From contig JAFYMP010000001.1 in assembly GCA_017556585.1 (NCBI GenBank), positions 1-37,347 on the forward strand: a stretch of 37,347 bases of DNA. The letters are read 5' to 3'. Position 1 is the stretch's first letter; each line of letters opens with the position of its first letter. Source of the stretch: Bacteroidaceae bacterium (GTDB lineage Bacteria; Bacteroidota; Bacteroidia; Bacteroidales; Bacteroidaceae). The notes beneath the pieces are model-generated. The model did no database searches, was not told where the DNA came from, and was given only the letters and a program-made list of their open reading frames with translations. Both the position numbers and the translations under genes were made by a program. Positions 9,769 through 20,844 of this stretch are shown here, piece after piece.

Positions 9769-10339
9769 TAATTTGGTATTTGCCACAAACAATGCCCATA
9801 AGTTAGACGAAGTACGTAGTATTTTGGGCAGTAGATTCACAGTGAAAAGTCTGAAAGAGATAGGTTGTGAAGCCGATATTCCAGAAACAGCCGATACTCT
9901 GGAAGGCAACGCACTGATGAAAGCCCGTTTTCTGTACGAAAGATATGGTGTAGATTGTTTTGCTGACGATACAGGTTTGGAGGTAACTGCTTTAGGCGGA
10001 GCACCGGGAGTACATACTGCAAGATATGCCGGTAATCACGATTCAGAAGCCAATATGAACAAACTTCTGAATGAATTGGAGAAAAAAAGTGACCGCTCTG
10101 CACAATTTAGAACAGTTATTGCGTTAATAATAGAGGGAAAGGAATTTCTCTTTGAGGGAATTGTAAAAGGAACTATAGCTAAAGAGAAAGCCGGTGATGG
10201 CGGCTTTGGTTACGATCCTATATTTATTCCTGATGGTTTTACACAAACTTTCTCACAAATGGGAAACGACAGTAAAAACCATATAAGCCACAGAGCTTTG
10301 GCTGTAGAAAAATTATTTAACTATTTGAACAGTATATGA
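9755..10339 (+). CDS. rdgB: Non-canonical purine NTP pyrophosphatase (dITP/XTPase)
   Basis: This HAM1/RdgB-family enzyme hydrolyses dITP, ITP and XTP to monophosphates and so keeps deaminated purines out of DNA and RNA. The 194-residue protein has the substrate-binding [12 protein letters not shown] at the N-terminus, the catalytic FADDTGLEV, then [14 protein letters not shown], and [13 protein letters not shown] near residue 150, all in family order. Its ATG lies within the last codons of leuS (14-base overlap, different frame), and its stop overlaps the next start as ATGA, so translational coupling is likely across all three genes. Confidence 0.96.
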
Positions 10340-12654
10340 ACAGAATTTTGACAAAAGCAGTATATACCGCAGCTTTGATTGCGGTTATACTACTTTTGCC
10401 ATTTTCTAATACATCGGCAACCATTCCAACAGGGGAATGGAGAACACACCTTTCTTATTATGATGCTACCAAAAGCCTTAAAGCATTTAACAAAATATTT
10501 GTTTTAAGCGCAGGTTCCATCTATTCATTCTCTCCGGAAGATAATAGTCTGTACATTTACGATAAAATAGGAGGTTTAAGTGATACATATATCTCCAATA
10601 TAGCATATTGCAATGATGAAAATGCATTATTGCTAATATATTCAAACGGAAACATTGATATTCTTTACCAGGACGAAACTATCTATAATTTTACTGACAT
10701 AAAGAATAGCAGTATAACAGATAAGACTATTTATGATGTTTATATAGATGGTTCAAATGCATATTTATCTACTGCATTCGGAGTTGTAGTTTTTAATATT
10801 GAAAAATTGGAAATTTCAAACAATTACAATTTAGGAACAGATATATTATCGACTGTTGTTAAAGATAACAGTATTATATGTGCTACTAATAACGGATTAT
10901 ATAAAGGTAGTATAAATGATAATTTGTTAGATAAATCCAAATGGAATAAGATATCGGAAAACATATATATTTCACTTTTTTCTTTTGATGATAAACTTAT
11001 AGGAAAAGATAAGAGTAATACTATTTATGAAATAAATGTTGATAATGGAACTAATTCTGTTATCACAAATAATGCACTAATAGTTAACAACAATGATAAT
11101 AAACTACTGGTATATAATGGTTCAGAATTATTTGTATATAATTTATTATCAGATTATTACTCTTATAATTTAATAGATGGTAATATAAATCATCTATTTA
11201 TAGAAGATAGTAAATTGTGGATAAGTCAGGGTTATAAAGGATTGACAGAGTTTTCTATTGTGGAAAACAATTTAGTTTGCAACAGATTCCAAATTTTACC
11301 CGATAGTCCCAGAAGAAACTATTCACATTACATTACTTTTTCCGGAGAAGATAAAATGTTAATGGTGGGTGGTACTCATAACTATTCCAATATTGAATAT
11401 GAAGGAACAGTTATGATTTACAATAATAACAGATGGAGTTATCTTGATGACGATATATCTTCTAAAACAGGTGTAAAATATATAAACCTTACATCTATTG
11501 TAGAAGATCCAAAAGAGAAAAATCACTATTTTGTAGGTTCCGGACGACATGGATTATATGAATTTAAAGATAATAAGTTTTATAAACTGCATACATATAA
11601 TAATAGCGGACTTACTACTATTATTCCTGCAAATCCTAAAAACTATGTTAGTGTAGATGGACTTAAATACGATACAAAAGGAAATCTTTGGATGGTTAAT
11701 AACGAAATAGATACCATTATTAAAATTATGAAACCTGATGGAAGTTGGAAAGGTTTATATTATCCGGAAATATCAGGTCTTCCTACTTTTAGAAAATTAG
11801 ATTTTGATAAAGATGGCAGAATTTGGACTAATTCATCAAGATATAAAGCAGGAATGTTCTGTTTAGATATAAATAATACTTTAGATAATAACGATGATGA
11901 TAAACATAAGTTTGTAGGTCCTACATTTACTAATCAGGATGGAGTATCTGAAATTATAAATGATATTTTCTTCTTTGAATTTGATAAGAATGGAGAGATG
12001 TGGTTAGGTACTGACAGAGGTATTTTTGTTCTTAGAGAACCTGAAAAATTTCTATCCAGTGATAAAGTAATTTTTGAAAGAGTAAAAATACCAAGAAATG
12101 ATGGTACTAATTTAGCCGATTATCTTTTAAGTGGTATTTATACTACTGCTATATGTATAGATGATGCCAATAGAAAATGGATAGGTACACAAAATAATGG
12201 AGTATTTTTACTTTCTGAAGATGGAAAAGAGACTATTCATCATTTTACAGAAGAGAATAGCCCATTACTTTCCAATTATATTCAGACTATTGCAATAAAC
12301 TCTTCTACAGGCTCAGTTTTCTTTGGAACAAGTCTTGGACTTATAGAATATGGTGGCGATGCTACAGAGCCAGAAAACAGCCTTTCTGAAAGTAATATTG
12401 AGGTATATCCCAATCCAGTTAATCCTGATTTTGATGTACCTGTTACTATAAAAGGAATGTCAGATAAATGTACTGTTAGAATAGTATCGGCTTCCGGTTC
12501 TCTTATATATCAAGGATATTCAAATGGTGGAACATTTACCTGGAATGTAACAGATAGAAATGGTAATAGAGTATCATCAGGAGTATATCATGCCATTATA
12601 ACCGATTTGAATAATTCCAAATCAACATCTGTCAGTATAACAGTTATAAGATAA
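10336..12654 (+). CDS. PorZ-like beta-propeller protein with T9SS-type C-terminal domain
   Basis: This 772-residue exported protein has a signal peptide (about 1-28) and then [15 protein letters not shown], the usual opening of PorZ-like propeller proteins. Repeated segments such as [48 protein letters not shown] and [13 protein letters not shown] are propeller blades of the two-component-regulator type. The end (about 688-772) begins with EVYPNPVNP and has [10 protein letters not shown]...SSGVYH, the type A sorting domain of the type IX secretion system. In Porphyromonas PorZ is part of the surface complex that attaches cargo to A-LPS. Whether this organism has a T9SS cannot be seen here. 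The gene is clearly more AT-rich than its neighbours (many Asn, Ile and Lys codons). It overlaps rdgB by four bases and ends at the origin-like gap. Confidence 0.85.
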
Positions 12655-13126
12655 TATTATATAGTTTTATTTTTATATCTCTTATCTATTATAATTATTA
12701 TATCCTGTTGAAACTGTTGAAATGTTTTTGAATTTTTAATGGAATAAATTTTATGAACAATTTTCACGGATATTGAACAATTAATAAACATATTAAAATA
12801 TTGGATATAAATATAATACAGAGTTATCAACATGTTTGTTAATATAGTTATAAGTAGTAATAAAACGGAGTGTGATTGTTTATATCCGGTTAAAAAAAAA
12901 TAATAAAAAAATGGGTTATCAACAGTGGTTTTTCAAATACATTTATAATTGACTACTGATGTAAAAAATCCAAATTTATAACCATGAAATTAGATATTAT
13001 TTATCAACTGTAAAAACCAGCTTTTTCAACAGCTTTTTCAGGATATCAACATAGTTATTCACACCCTTATTTTATAGTAAGATTAAAAAGAGTAAATTTG
13101 CAGATGTAAAATAGAAGTGTACGGAT
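12655..13126. other. Candidate chromosomal replication origin (oriC-like AT-rich gap)
   Basis: This 472-base stretch has no plausible gene. It contains a perfect DnaA-box consensus TTATTCACA at 13055-13063. Close relatives are TTATCAACA at 12824-12832 and 12916-12924, TTATCAACT at 13001-13009 and ATATCAACA at 13043-13051, all in the same orientation. A 9-bp tandem repeat CTGTTGAAA (12705-12722) recurs inverted as TTTCAACAG at 13024-13032, and AGCTTTTTCA is repeated at 13019-13028 and 13031-13040. An A-rich run at about 12890-12912 could serve as the unwinding element. Clustered boxes, extreme AT content and a nearby parS-type site all fit an origin. The replication function is inference. The right edge also holds the promoter of the methyltransferase gene. 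Confidence 0.55.
13093..13100 (+). promoter_or_regulatory. -7 box for the TrmH-family gene
   Basis: TAAATTTG matches TAnnTTTG and lies 27 bases before the ATG at 13127, at the right edge of the origin-like gap. Confidence 0.55.
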
Positions 13127-13672
13127 ATGAGAAAACTGGAAGTATCAGAATTGAACAGAATAGATAGAGAATCATTTATAGAGAGTATAAAACTGCCTGT
13201 AACTGTTATTCTAGATAATGTAAGGAGTCTGCATAATGTGGGTTCTGTATTTAGAACTTCCGATGCTTTCAGAATAGAGAAGATATATCTGTGTGGTATT
13301 ACTGCTACTCCGGAAAATTCATTGACAGAGATTCATAAAACAGCTTTGGGTGCAGAAGAATCTGTAGAATGGGAATATTCAGCCGATACTATTCGCGTGG
13401 TGCAAGACTTAAAAAGTAAAGGTTACACCATTATATCTATAGAACAGGTTGAAGGTAGCATTATGCTTAACAATTTTATAGCCGATACTTCTGCTAAATA
13501 TGCGCTTATACTTGGTAATGAAGTTAAAGGTGTACAACAGCAAGTAGTTGATATTTCTGATATATCTATAGAAATACCTCAATATGGTACAAAACATTCA
13601 TTGAATGTATCTGTATCGGCCGGAATAGTGCTTTGGGAATTTGCAAAGCAGTTAAAGAATATAATTGATTAA
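13127..13672 (+). CDS. TrmH/SpoU-family RNA 2'-O-methyltransferase
   Basis: This 181-residue cytoplasmic enzyme of the SPOUT class has all three family motifs: a segment containing VRSLHNVGSVFRTSDAF near residue 30 (with the catalytic-type Arg), ALILGNEVKGV near residue 126, and IEIPQYGTKHSLNVSVSAG near residue 148, which form the knotted SAM-binding site. Family members methylate ribose in tRNA or rRNA, and the exact target cannot be read from the sequence. It lacks the extra N-terminal substrate-binding domain of longer rRNA methylases, so it is closer to the compact TrmH type. Its last four bases overlap the 3' end of polA on the other strand. Confidence 0.9.
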   Translation: MRKLEVSELNRIDRESFIESIKLPVTVILDNVRSLHNVGSVFRTSDAFRIEKIYLCGITATPENSLTEIHKTALGAEESVEWEYSADTIRVVQDLKSKGYTIISIEQVEGSIMLNNFIADTSAKYALILGNEVKGVQQQVVDISDISIEIPQYGTKHSLNVSVSAGIVLWEFAKQLKNIID

Positions 13673-16473
13673 TGAGCTTCCAACCAGTTTTTACCCCAAC
13701 CGAAATCTGCTGTTAAAGGAACTTGCATAGGGTATGCATTCTGCATCTCCTCTAAAACTATACTCTTTACTATCTCTTCTTCTCCCTTTACTACGTTAAA
13801 GTTCAATTCATCATGTACCTGCAGAATCATGGTAGATTTAATATTCTCTTTCATAAATCTATTATAGATACCTATCATTGCTTTTTTAATAATATCTGCA
13901 GCACTACCTTGAATAGGAGCATTTATGGCATTTCTTTCAGCAAATCCGCGTACAATGGCATTACCCGATGTTATATTTGGCAGATAACGTTTTCTATGTA
14001 GTACAGTCTCTATATATTGTTTCTCTTTAGCTTTTTCAATAGACAGATCCATATACTGTTTTATACCGGGATATGTTTTGAAATAGTTATCTATAAGTTC
14101 TTTAGCCTGTGCTCTGTTTACACCCATTCTTTCTGCAAGTCCAAACACCGATATACCATATATGATTCCAAAATTGGCAGTTTTAGCTTTGCTTCTTTCA
14201 GACTTTGTAACCTCTTCAATAGATTTACCAAATACTTTGGCTGCTGTTGCTGCATGAATATCATTTCCTTGATTAAAATCTTCTATCATATTGGCATCTC
14301 CACTGAGATGAGCCATTATTCTAAGTTCTATCTGTGAATAGTCAGCAGAGAAAAATGTACAACCTTCATCCGGTATAAACGCTTTTCTTACCTCTTTTCC
14401 ATCTTCATCTCTGATAGGGATATTTTGCAGGTTTGGATTGCTTGAACTTAATCTGCCGGTAGCTGTCACTGTTTGATTAAATGATGTATGAATTTTACCG
14501 GTTTGTTTGTTAATAAGCAGTGGTAGTGCATCAACGTAAGTACCAAGCAGCTTTTTAAGTCCACGATATTGCAGTATTTTATCTACAATAGGATGATTAT
14601 ATCTTAATCCTTCCAGCACCTCTTCTGATGTTACATATTGGCCGGTTTTTGTCTTTTTAGCTTTTTCTACTATCTTAAGTCTTTCAAATAGTACTTCGCC
14701 TACCTGTTTTGGCGATAATATATTAAATTCCATACCAGCTAAAGAGAAAATATCTTTTTCTATGGCTCTCATTCTGCCGTTGAAAACTTCTGATGTCTCT
14801 TTGAGTGATACAGTATCTAATCTTACACCATTTTTTTCCATATAGGCTAAGACTTTTACCAGTGGCATCTCTATTTCATTGAATAGAGTGTATGTACCAT
14901 CTTTTTTAAGTTCTGTCTCAAGTATATTTTTTAATTGTAGTGTAATATCGGCATCTTCGCAGGCATATTCATATACCTGTTCAGGAAAGAGATTTGCCAT
15001 ATTGCCCTGGTGTTTTCCTCTCTCTCCTATCAGTTCTTCTATATGGATGGTTTTATACTTCAGATAGATTTCTGCCAGATAGTCCATATTATGGTGCAAT
15101 TCAGGTTGCAACAGATAGTGAGCTATCATTGTGTCGAACATTTCTCCTTTTACATCTATTCCCAAATTTGAAAGAACCAAAATATCGTATTTAATGTTCT
15201 GTCCAATTTTCAAAATGGTTTCGTCTTCCAACACATTTTTTATTATTGATAGTATTTCTCTGTTTTTTTCTTCGTCTGCAGTAATTGGAATGTAAAATGC
15301 TTCGTGTTCTTTAATGGAGAAGCTTATTCCTACCAATTTTGCAGAAATTGGGTTGATACCCGATGTCTCTGTATCAAAACAGCAAAATTTACTATCCAAA
15401 ATTTTAGCACCTAATTGTTTTACATCTTCTACATTATCAAGCAGATAATAGTTATGATATGTAGATTTTATGTCGCTGAGATTTGAATTTTTGAAAAGAT
15501 CTGTATCATTATCCACAAAAACATCAAACAAATCGCCACTAAAACCATCATTTTTCTTAGTTGTTGGTTTGTTATCAGTAATAGTTGAAATGTTACTACT
15601 CTCTCTTTCGGCAAGTCTGTTTATTAGTGTTCTAAATTCAAGTTCGGTGAAAAGTTCCTTAATTTTTTTCAAATCGGGTTTTTCCACTTTCAACTTTTCC
15701 ATATCAAGTTCTATAGGAACATCTCTTCTTATGGTGGCAAGTAGTTTACTGAACTCTATCTTTTCTCTGTTCTCTTCTATCTTGCTTTTTAACGATCCTT
15801 TTAATTTGTCACTATTTGCAAGTATGTTTTCTATGTTGCCATATTCAGCTATTAACTTTTGTGCTGTTTTGGGTCCTACTCCGGGACAGCCGGGAATGTT
15901 ATCGGAACTATCGCCCATCAGACCAAGTAAATCTATTATCTGACAAGTATCTGTTATTTCATATTTTTCCTTTACCACTTGCGGAGTCATAACCTCATAT
16001 CCTGTATCTCCGTATCGTGGTCTATATACAAAAGATGTGTTTGATACCAATTGGCAGTAGTCTTTGTCCGGGGTAAGCATATATGTCTCTATTCCACCCT
16101 TTTCATCGGCCTTTTTAGATAATGTTCCTATAACATCATCGGCTTCGAATCCGGCTACTTCTAAAATAGGAATATTGTATGCTTTGATAATCTCCTTGAT
16201 GATAGGCACAGATTCTTTAATAGTTTCCGGTGTCTCTTCTCTTTGAGCTTTGTACTCTTTATACAACTCATGACGGAAAGTACCTCCTGCAGGATCGAAA
16301 GCCACTCCAAGATGGGTAGGTTTCTCTTTTGCTATAATCTCTTCTAATGTGTTCACAAATCCCAAAATGGCAGATGTATTCTGTCCTTTGGAATTTATAC
16401 GCGGATTCTTAAAGAAAGCGTAGTATGCTCTGTATATTATAGCGTATGCATCGAGTAAAAATAACCTTTCCAT
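13669..16473 (-). CDS. polA: DNA polymerase I
   Basis: This 934-residue enzyme fills gaps and removes RNA primers. The N-terminal 5' nuclease (about 1-290) has the DAYAIIYRAYYAF opening, the GFEADDVIGTL acidic cluster and the GVGPKTAQKLI helix-hairpin-helix. The 3'-5' exonuclease domain keeps its metal ligands, with FDTETSG near residue 365, GQNIKYD, and YACEDAD, so proofreading is probably active. The polymerase domain has motif A DYSQIELR near 709, motif B RSKAKTANFGIIYG, and motif C QVHDEL near 886. It is convergent with the methyltransferase gene, with stop codons overlapping by four bases. Its upstream gap is shared with the divergent polyprenyl synthase. Confidence 0.98.
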   Translation of the reverse strand: MERLFLLDAYAIIYRAYYAFFKNPRINSKGQNTSAILGFVNTLEEIIAKEKPTHLGVAFDPAGGTFRHELYKEYKAQREETPETIKESVPIIKEIIKAYNIPILEVAGFEADDVIGTLSKKADEKGGIETYMLTPDKDYCQLVSNTSFVYRPRYGDTGYEVMTPQVVKEKYEITDTCQIIDLLGLMGDSSDNIPGCPGVGPKTAQKLIAEYGNIENILANSDKLKGSLKSKIEENREKIEFSKLLATIRRDVPIELDMEKLKVEKPDLKKIKELFTELEFRTLINRLAERESSNISTITDNKPTTKKNDGFSGDLFDVFVDNDTDLFKNSNLSDIKSTYHNYYLLDNVEDVKQLGAKILDSKFCCFDTETSGINPISAKLVGISFSIKEHEAFYIPITADEEKNREILSIIKNVLEDETILKIGQNIKYDILVLSNLGIDVKGEMFDTMIAHYLLQPELHHNMDYLAEIYLKYKTIHIEELIGERGKHQGNMANLFPEQVYEYACEDADITLQLKNILETELKKDGTYTLFNEIEMPLVKVLAYMEKNGVRLDTVSLKETSEVFNGRMRAIEKDIFSLAGMEFNILSPKQVGEVLFERLKIVEKAKKTKTGQYVTSEEVLEGLRYNHPIVDKILQYRGLKKLLGTYVDALPLLINKQTGKIHTSFNQTVTATGRLSSSNPNLQNIPIRDEDGKEVRKAFIPDEGCTFFSADYSQIELRIMAHLSGDANMIEDFNQGNDIHAATAAKVFGKSIEEVTKSERSKAKTANFGIIYGISVFGLAERMGVNRAQAKELIDNYFKTYPGIKQYMDLSIEKAKEKQYIETVLHRKRYLPNITSGNAIVRGFAERNAINAPIQGSAADIIKKAMIGIYNRFMKENIKSTMILQVHDELNFNVVKGEEEIVKSIVLEEMQNAYPMQVPLTADFGWGKNWLEAH

Positions 16474-20828: not shown

Positions 20829-20844
20829 TGTTCCACGTGGAACA
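20829..20844. other. parS: parS-type centromere site (ParB-binding palindrome)
   Basis: TGTTCCACGTGGAACA is a perfect 16-bp palindrome identical to the parS consensus described for Pseudomonas and one base per arm from the Bacillus form. It lies in the 69-base spacer between mnmG and uvrC. parS sites nucleate ParB and usually cluster near the replication origin; the candidate origin here is about 7.9 kb away. Function as a ParB site in this organism is inferred from the sequence match. I noticed no second copy in the window. Confidence 0.75.

Follow-up and report, generated by a model that had tools for sequence, protein, structure and literature searches.

A candidate chromosomal replication origin between porZ and trmH in a Bacteroidales genome

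Results

Gene content around the gap

The DNA analysed in the present study (the window) is one whole contig of 37,347 nt from a draft Bacteroidaceae genome (103 contigs, 82.8% complete). A noncoding gap of 472 bp with a GC content of 22% extends from the stop codon of porZ, which ends at 12654, to the ATG of trmH at 13127 (Table 1). A previous sequence-only reading had described a gene-free, AT-rich gap of 472 bases between PorZ-like and TrmH-family genes and had proposed it as a candidate chromosomal origin; direct reading of the sequence bears out this description, and also the remark that dnaA is absent from the window, as dnaA sits on a different contig. Past trmH, the window contains polA, an isoprenyl diphosphate synthase gene, deoC, dtd, uvrC, mnmG, and the succinate dehydrogenase/fumarate reductase genes, with short spacers between uvrC and mnmG (69 bp) and between mnmG and sdhC (121 bp).

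Table 1. Positions of genes and predicted origin features in the window
Feature	Position	Strand	Basis
porZ (type IX secretion), left flank	10336..12654	+	NF052228, 714.6 bits (cut-off 260)
Candidate oriC: AT-rich noncoding gap with predicted DnaA-box cluster	12655..13126		22% GC, box excess, recurrence in genus
Candidate DNA unwinding element next to tandem box pair	12655..12704		Nearest-neighbour energies; box strand A-rich in relatives
Two abutting box-like sites, 9-bp period (20-bp signature)	12705..12724 (boxes 12706-12714, 12715-12723)	-	Genus conservation
Predicted box TTATGAACA	12751..12759	+	This species; weakly conserved
Predicted box TTATCAACA	12824..12832	+	Conserved column block
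Weak predicted box, 2 mismatches	12837..12845	-	Box scan
Weak predicted box, 2 mismatches, conserved TGTT.AT	12877..12885	-	Box scan, alignment
Predicted box TTATCAACA	12916..12924	+	Conserved in alignment
Predicted box TTATCAACT	13001..13009	+	TTnTnAACA in relatives
Predicted box TTTTCAACA	13023..13031	+	Strongly conserved
Predicted box ATATCAACA	13043..13051	+	Box scan
TTATTCACA, "perfect" box of the sequence-only reading	13055..13063	+	TTTTACAC in relatives
TrmH/SpoU-family RNA methyltransferase, right flank	13127..13672	+	Best match TIGR00186, 96.2 bits, under its cut-off of 160.15
polA, converging on trmH	13669..16473	-	TIGR00593 above cut-off
parS TGTTCCACGTGGAACA, between uvrC and mnmG	20829..20844		Motif scan and genus linkage

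Predicted DnaA boxes

The commonest box word in this lineage is TTATCAACA, or TTWTNAACA in degenerate form, and most boxes in the gap carry A at position 6. Six sites in the gap lie within one mismatch of TTATCAACA, compared with a mean of 0.55 expected, and none of 1000 dinucleotide shuffles reached six. The gaps of 25 relatives (L009, L016, and L035-L037 were dropped) together contain 126 such sites, compared with 12.7 expected from shuffles. A DnaA-box cluster above chance, which is one of the marks of an oriC, is present in the gap. Across the genome, TTWTNAACA occurs at 493 sites, compared with 375 for the reversed pattern. The canonical word TTATCCACA was rejected as the box word of this genome, where it is unenriched (34 sites, compared with 33 for the reversed pattern), and no exact copy was found in the gap.

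Four near-match boxes reported previously (starting at 12824, 12916, 13001, and 13043), a 10-bp direct repeat AGCTTTTTCA at 13019 and 13031, and an A-rich tract at about 12892-12911 were all observed. The box singled out as perfect is likewise present, but it is the least telling of the sites, as the canonical word is unenriched and the relatives show a different word in this column. A 9-bp tandem repeat, CTGTTGAAA, does occur twice at 12705-12722, with its reverse complement at 13024-13032, but its reading is corrected herein: the repeat represents a further pair of box-like sites, both on the minus strand and both differing from TTATCAACA at two positions. Conservation within the gap is highest at this tandem pair.

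Within the fetched stretch, the 500-bp segment richest in boxes lies at the gap in the window itself and in four same-genus genomes (G033, G022, G018, and G017); the gap also has the top 500-bp box count in G011 and G036, where ties elsewhere are possible. The densest 500-bp window lies elsewhere in G008 and on contig C1 of G028.

Box words upstream of dnaA

The region upstream of dnaA was surveyed in 31 of the 37 genus genomes (30 loci kept by the search and that of the window's own genome). In 29 of these 31 genomes, TTATCAACA was observed upstream of the DnaA family match, at a distance of 229-283 bp, and TTWTCAACA was counted 33 times upstream of dnaA, compared with 0 for the reversed pattern. 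The two genomes without TTATCAACA in this position are G019, which carries TTTTCAACA closer to the gene, and G028. In the window's own genome, TTATCAACA and TTTTCAACA lie 55 bp apart upstream of dnaA (G000:C71, 53478-53541), and these two predicted boxes suggest autoregulation. No skew step was observed on the 159-kb dnaA contig, where each strand keeps one sign throughout (plus-strand ORFs -0.15, -0.10, and -0.11; minus-strand ORFs +0.18, +0.18, and +0.19).

Conservation of the gap

A close trmH match was found in 30 of the 37 genus genomes, including that of the window; in the other seven, the best match was only about 1e-10 to 1e-12. According to an automatic rule (gap >300 bp), a similar gap precedes trmH at 26 of the 30 same-genus loci, the window included. 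The exceptions are L016, whose gap was set by hand (442 bp, the 27th), L037, which lies at a contig edge, L036, with 111 bp, and L035 (G028), with none. The 27 gaps aligned (L016 at its hand-set length; L035, L036, and L037 dropped) show blocks of conservation with variable sequence between, and many of the blocks are TTnTnAACA-like units. Box clusters at this locus were thus also found in close relatives, a point on which the earlier proposal of an origin had been made to depend. In some relatives, trmH seemed to be locally inverted, which is an artefact of loci that were not re-oriented.

The 20-bp double box was observed at two mismatches or fewer in 21 of the 37 genus genomes, once in each and in every case adjoining trmH. 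At three mismatches, 19 more matches were obtained, one at the gap (G031) and the others elsewhere; the reversed 20-bp pattern, used as a control, gave 12 matches in total at up to three mismatches. As expected of an oriC, the element is found once per chromosome and is conserved in relatives, the genomes being drafts.

A broader comparison covered 80 loci, the best among 594 from a species-level genome collection. Of these 80, 22 have at least four boxes in 500 bp, and in 13 of those 22 the box window starts 220-540 bp upstream of trmH; L040, L042, and L043 among the 13 match same-genus contigs in length. The Odoribacter and Flavobacteriia loci among the 80 have at most three boxes; thus, the link with trmH is not phylum-wide. 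In five Bacteroides loci (L052, L054, L062, L067, and L100), boxes are densest downstream of the trmH start, at a distance of 1.2-1.6 kb. In addition, on a contig titled as a Treponema sp. MAG (L041, JAGCYQ010000101.1), the trmH locus shares 67% identity with that of the window and has a similar upstream double box; this contig probably belongs to Bacteroidales and has been mis-binned or mislabelled.

Linkage with parS

A parS-type site had been reported 7.9 kb away; the site is present, and its distance from the gap end is 7.7 kb. It is a perfect palindrome in the uvrC-mnmG spacer, and 29 of the 31 genus genomes with parS carry TGTTTCACGTGGAACA rather than the TGTTCCACGTGGAACA of the window. 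The site in the window could by itself be due to chance, as a site at three mismatches or fewer occurs in 17 of 100 shuffles, and its weight derives from recurrence in the genus. Of the 37 genus genomes, 31 carry the motif TGTTNCACGTGNAACA (30 of them at a single place, G012 at two) and six lack it; the reversed control gave 0. parS and trmH share a contig in 24 of the 31 genomes, with parS always downstream on the same side and 6.4-12.9 kb from the trmH start (6.4-8.4 kb in 21, 12.8-12.9 kb in three). Among further genomes from the wider collection, 15 of 20 have parS, at varying distances from trmH. A ParB-family match above cut-off was obtained in the window's genome (G000:C88), so that both features of a chromosomal parS, i.e. 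TGTTNCACGTGNAACA near the candidate origin and ParB in the same genome, were observed.

A natural experiment in G028

In G028, trmH (C1:89391) and porZ (C1:63293-65623) lie 24 kb apart, and trmH there has neither a box-rich gap nor a skew step; a search of contig C1 for an origin found none. The parS of this genome is at C2:4770, where the order mnmG, uvrC, deoC, ispB, and polA is kept. The C2 region was chosen because parS pointed there, and it represents a single case. Beyond polA and two ORFs, a 422-bp gap contains nine predicted boxes in about 350 bp (13881-14226), compared with 12 boxes in the remainder of the 40 kb. This cluster lies 9 kb from parS and is flanked by converging ORFs (ends 13875 and 14298), with no gene start. 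Across it, the skew of minus-strand ORFs changes from +0.141 to -0.175, and that of plus-strand ORFs is -0.046 on both sides. A rearrangement (C1:63293-89918, C2:2868-14298) has thus parted porZ and trmH from the segment that contains the box cluster, polA, and parS. As the cluster is found near polA and parS and away from trmH, it goes with polA and parS and not with the trmH promoter. In G001, only two boxes were found beside parS and polA and trmH lies at a contig end; thus, the origin of G001 was not located.

Strand asymmetry

Across the gap in the window, the own-strand GC3 skew of plus-strand ORFs changes from +0.014 (left) to +0.103 (right) and that of minus-strand ORFs from +0.079 to -0.021, values that rest on 5, 10, 2, and 10 ORFs. 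The sign of this step is that expected of an origin. In relatives, a local left/right contrast was used (50-kb flanks, coding-strand means removed), and G036 was excluded, as 18 kb separate its gap from a contig end. In five of the six same-genus contigs analysed, the GC3-skew step that is largest after gene-strand correction was found no more than 9 kb from the gap. The distances from step to gap, with the share of tested positions whose step equals or exceeds that at the gap, are 3.0 kb and 0.011 for G033, 7.9 kb and 0.013 for G011, -8.1 kb and 0.028 for G022, 8.9 kb and 0.068 for G008, and 3.8 kb and 0.050 for G017. In the sixth, G018 (72 kb fetched), the largest step is -19.6 kb from the gap, and 0.389 of positions have a step as large.

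An unrestricted single-change-point fit placed the change no more than 9 kb from trmH in only three of eight contigs (G011, G008, and G017); the change fell near contig ends in G033 and G022, and was weak and away from trmH in G018, G036, and G028. Of the skew switch looked for near the gap, the local step in relatives and the sign in the window's ORFs hold, but the unrestricted fit agrees in three of eight contigs only. The location at a GC-skew switch, a further mark of an oriC, is thus observed at a resolution of about 10 kb, at which the gap and the parS/mnmG site are inseparable; the skew maximum is closer to parS than to the gap in G011, G008, and G022. Raw skew in 20-kb bins of G011:C19 is negative up to 180 kb, positive from 180 to 320 kb, and then mixed, with trmH at 170.3 kb. 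Four contigs have their raw cumulative minimum 8-23 kb away from the gap, at 178.4 kb in G011 (gap 170.1), 87.4 kb in G008 (77.1), 57.5 kb in G022 (68.1), and 25.1 kb in G017 (48.2); in G033, the minimum falls at the stretch end. The minus-strand gene run from polA to mnmG probably pulls the raw minimum toward parS.

Duplex stability and DnaA-trios

By nearest-neighbour energies, no other 50 bp in the 37-kb window are as unstable as those starting at 12652, which predicts an AT-rich element beside the boxes, as is typical of an oriC. At 100 and 300 bp, stretches inside porZ (near 11112 and 10897, respectively) are slightly less stable than the gap. Read on the minus strand, the tandem pair is TTTCAACAGTTTCAACAG, after which most relatives show a short step containing G/C and then some 50 bp of A-rich DNA. 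DnaA-trios were examined in 23 of the 30 loci; runs beyond composition were not found in these 23 gaps (mean run 5.2, compared with 4.6 in shuffled sequence), and the published minimum of three NAN was reached in all 23, as in AT-rich DNA generally.

Discussion

In the present study, comparisons of sequence among relatives lead us to conclude, with high confidence, that the gap at 12655-13126 is the putative chromosomal origin (oriC) of this Bacteroidales genome. The earlier candidate-origin reading is supported by the conserved box cluster, the nearby strand-asymmetry step, and the systematic proximity of parS, and the same word is observed upstream of dnaA.

Herein, we propose a sequence of events, in which DnaA binding, the melting site, helicase loading, and firing at the gap are steps that we infer. 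First, DnaA, made from a distant locus, would bind about ten boxes in the gap (four exact TTWTNAACA, the others one or two letters off). Second, melting would most likely start in the least stable 50 bp, which the tandem minus-strand pair at 12706-12723 abuts, and the helicase would be loaded at this melted stretch (12655-12704). Third, forks would depart both ways from the gap, and the new origins might be handled by ParB at parS, 7.7 kb off. PMC8287927 describes a basal unwinding system (BUS) in B. subtilis and others, which consists of tandem boxes, a short spacer, and an A-rich strand. The gap resembles this system in having tandem boxes, then a short spacer and an A-rich strand, but differs from that system in its box word and in trio runs that hardly exceed composition. 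By analogy with the BUS (PMC8287927), DnaA on the tandem pair would spread over the A-rich strand and open the DNA; we infer this strand-opening step, because the trio runs are hardly above composition.

The position of the cluster in G028 bears directly on another explanation, in which the gap is the trmH promoter or leader with sites for a transcription factor, or for DnaA acting only as a regulator, and the true origin lies near by, e.g. at parS/mnmG. A gene start follows the gap in 26 of the 30 loci, the skew maximum is closer to parS in the three contigs mentioned above, and mnmG adjoins oriC in E. coli. However, the G028 cluster stands between converging ORFs and the trmH of G028 lacks such a gap; thus, a trmH promoter does not explain the cluster. 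Moreover, the six top box stretches listed for the window all lie outside the uvrC-mnmG and mnmG-sdhC spacers, and an Rfam search of 12300-13700 yielded no match up to E 1, so that we regard this explanation as improbable. That box look-alikes arose by chance in an AT-rich spacer, to which the low GC content and the short box words would lend themselves, is hardly credible against the shuffled sequences, the count in relatives, and the conserved columns.

We lean towards the view that the genus might have shifted its DnaA-box dialect (A for C at position 6, TTWTNAACA) in common at the origin and the dnaA promoter, and that the origin and parS might stay one unit while trmH and porZ can move away, as in G028. 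The sole point that is possibly new is the dominance of TTATCAACA across a whole genus. These results place a candidate origin in a genus whose 37 searched genomes are drafts, which would allow growth estimates from read coverage and the orientation of contigs. They also provide a conserved sequence set for testing DnaA specificity in Bacteroidales. The trmH gap together with parS may be of use as a marker in other drafts of the order, if not in every family.

The oriC of E. coli comprises an AT-rich region and DnaA boxes, with mnmG close by. The gap is likewise AT-rich with predicted DnaA boxes; in contrast to E. coli, mnmG is 7.7 kb from the gap, which instead adjoins trmH and porZ. According to PMC4674748, the linear-chromosome origin of Cyanothece ATCC 51142 has one DnaA box that is identical to TTATCAACA, beside TTATCCATA. 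Thus, the word shared with the present gap is itself not new, whereas the gap, in another phylum, holds a cluster in place of the single TTATCAACA box beside TTATCCATA given there (PMC4674748). Within the Bacteroidetes, the maps in a Porphyromonas gingivalis paper place oriC at base 1 of dnaA. PMC4755523, citing DoriC, states that off-dnaA origins are common in this phylum, and describes for chromosome 1 of Prevotella intermedia OMA14 a predicted oriC of about 476 bp, with multiple boxes and a skew transition, away from dnaA. The present gap is similar to the latter in size, multiple boxes, skew transition, position off dnaA, and phylum; the P. intermedia oriC was found with E. coli-type boxes, one mismatch being allowed, whereas most boxes of the present gap have A at position 6 (PMC4755523). 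Origins of this off-dnaA kind are therefore already known, and the present locus very probably adds one more, mostly with a variant box word.
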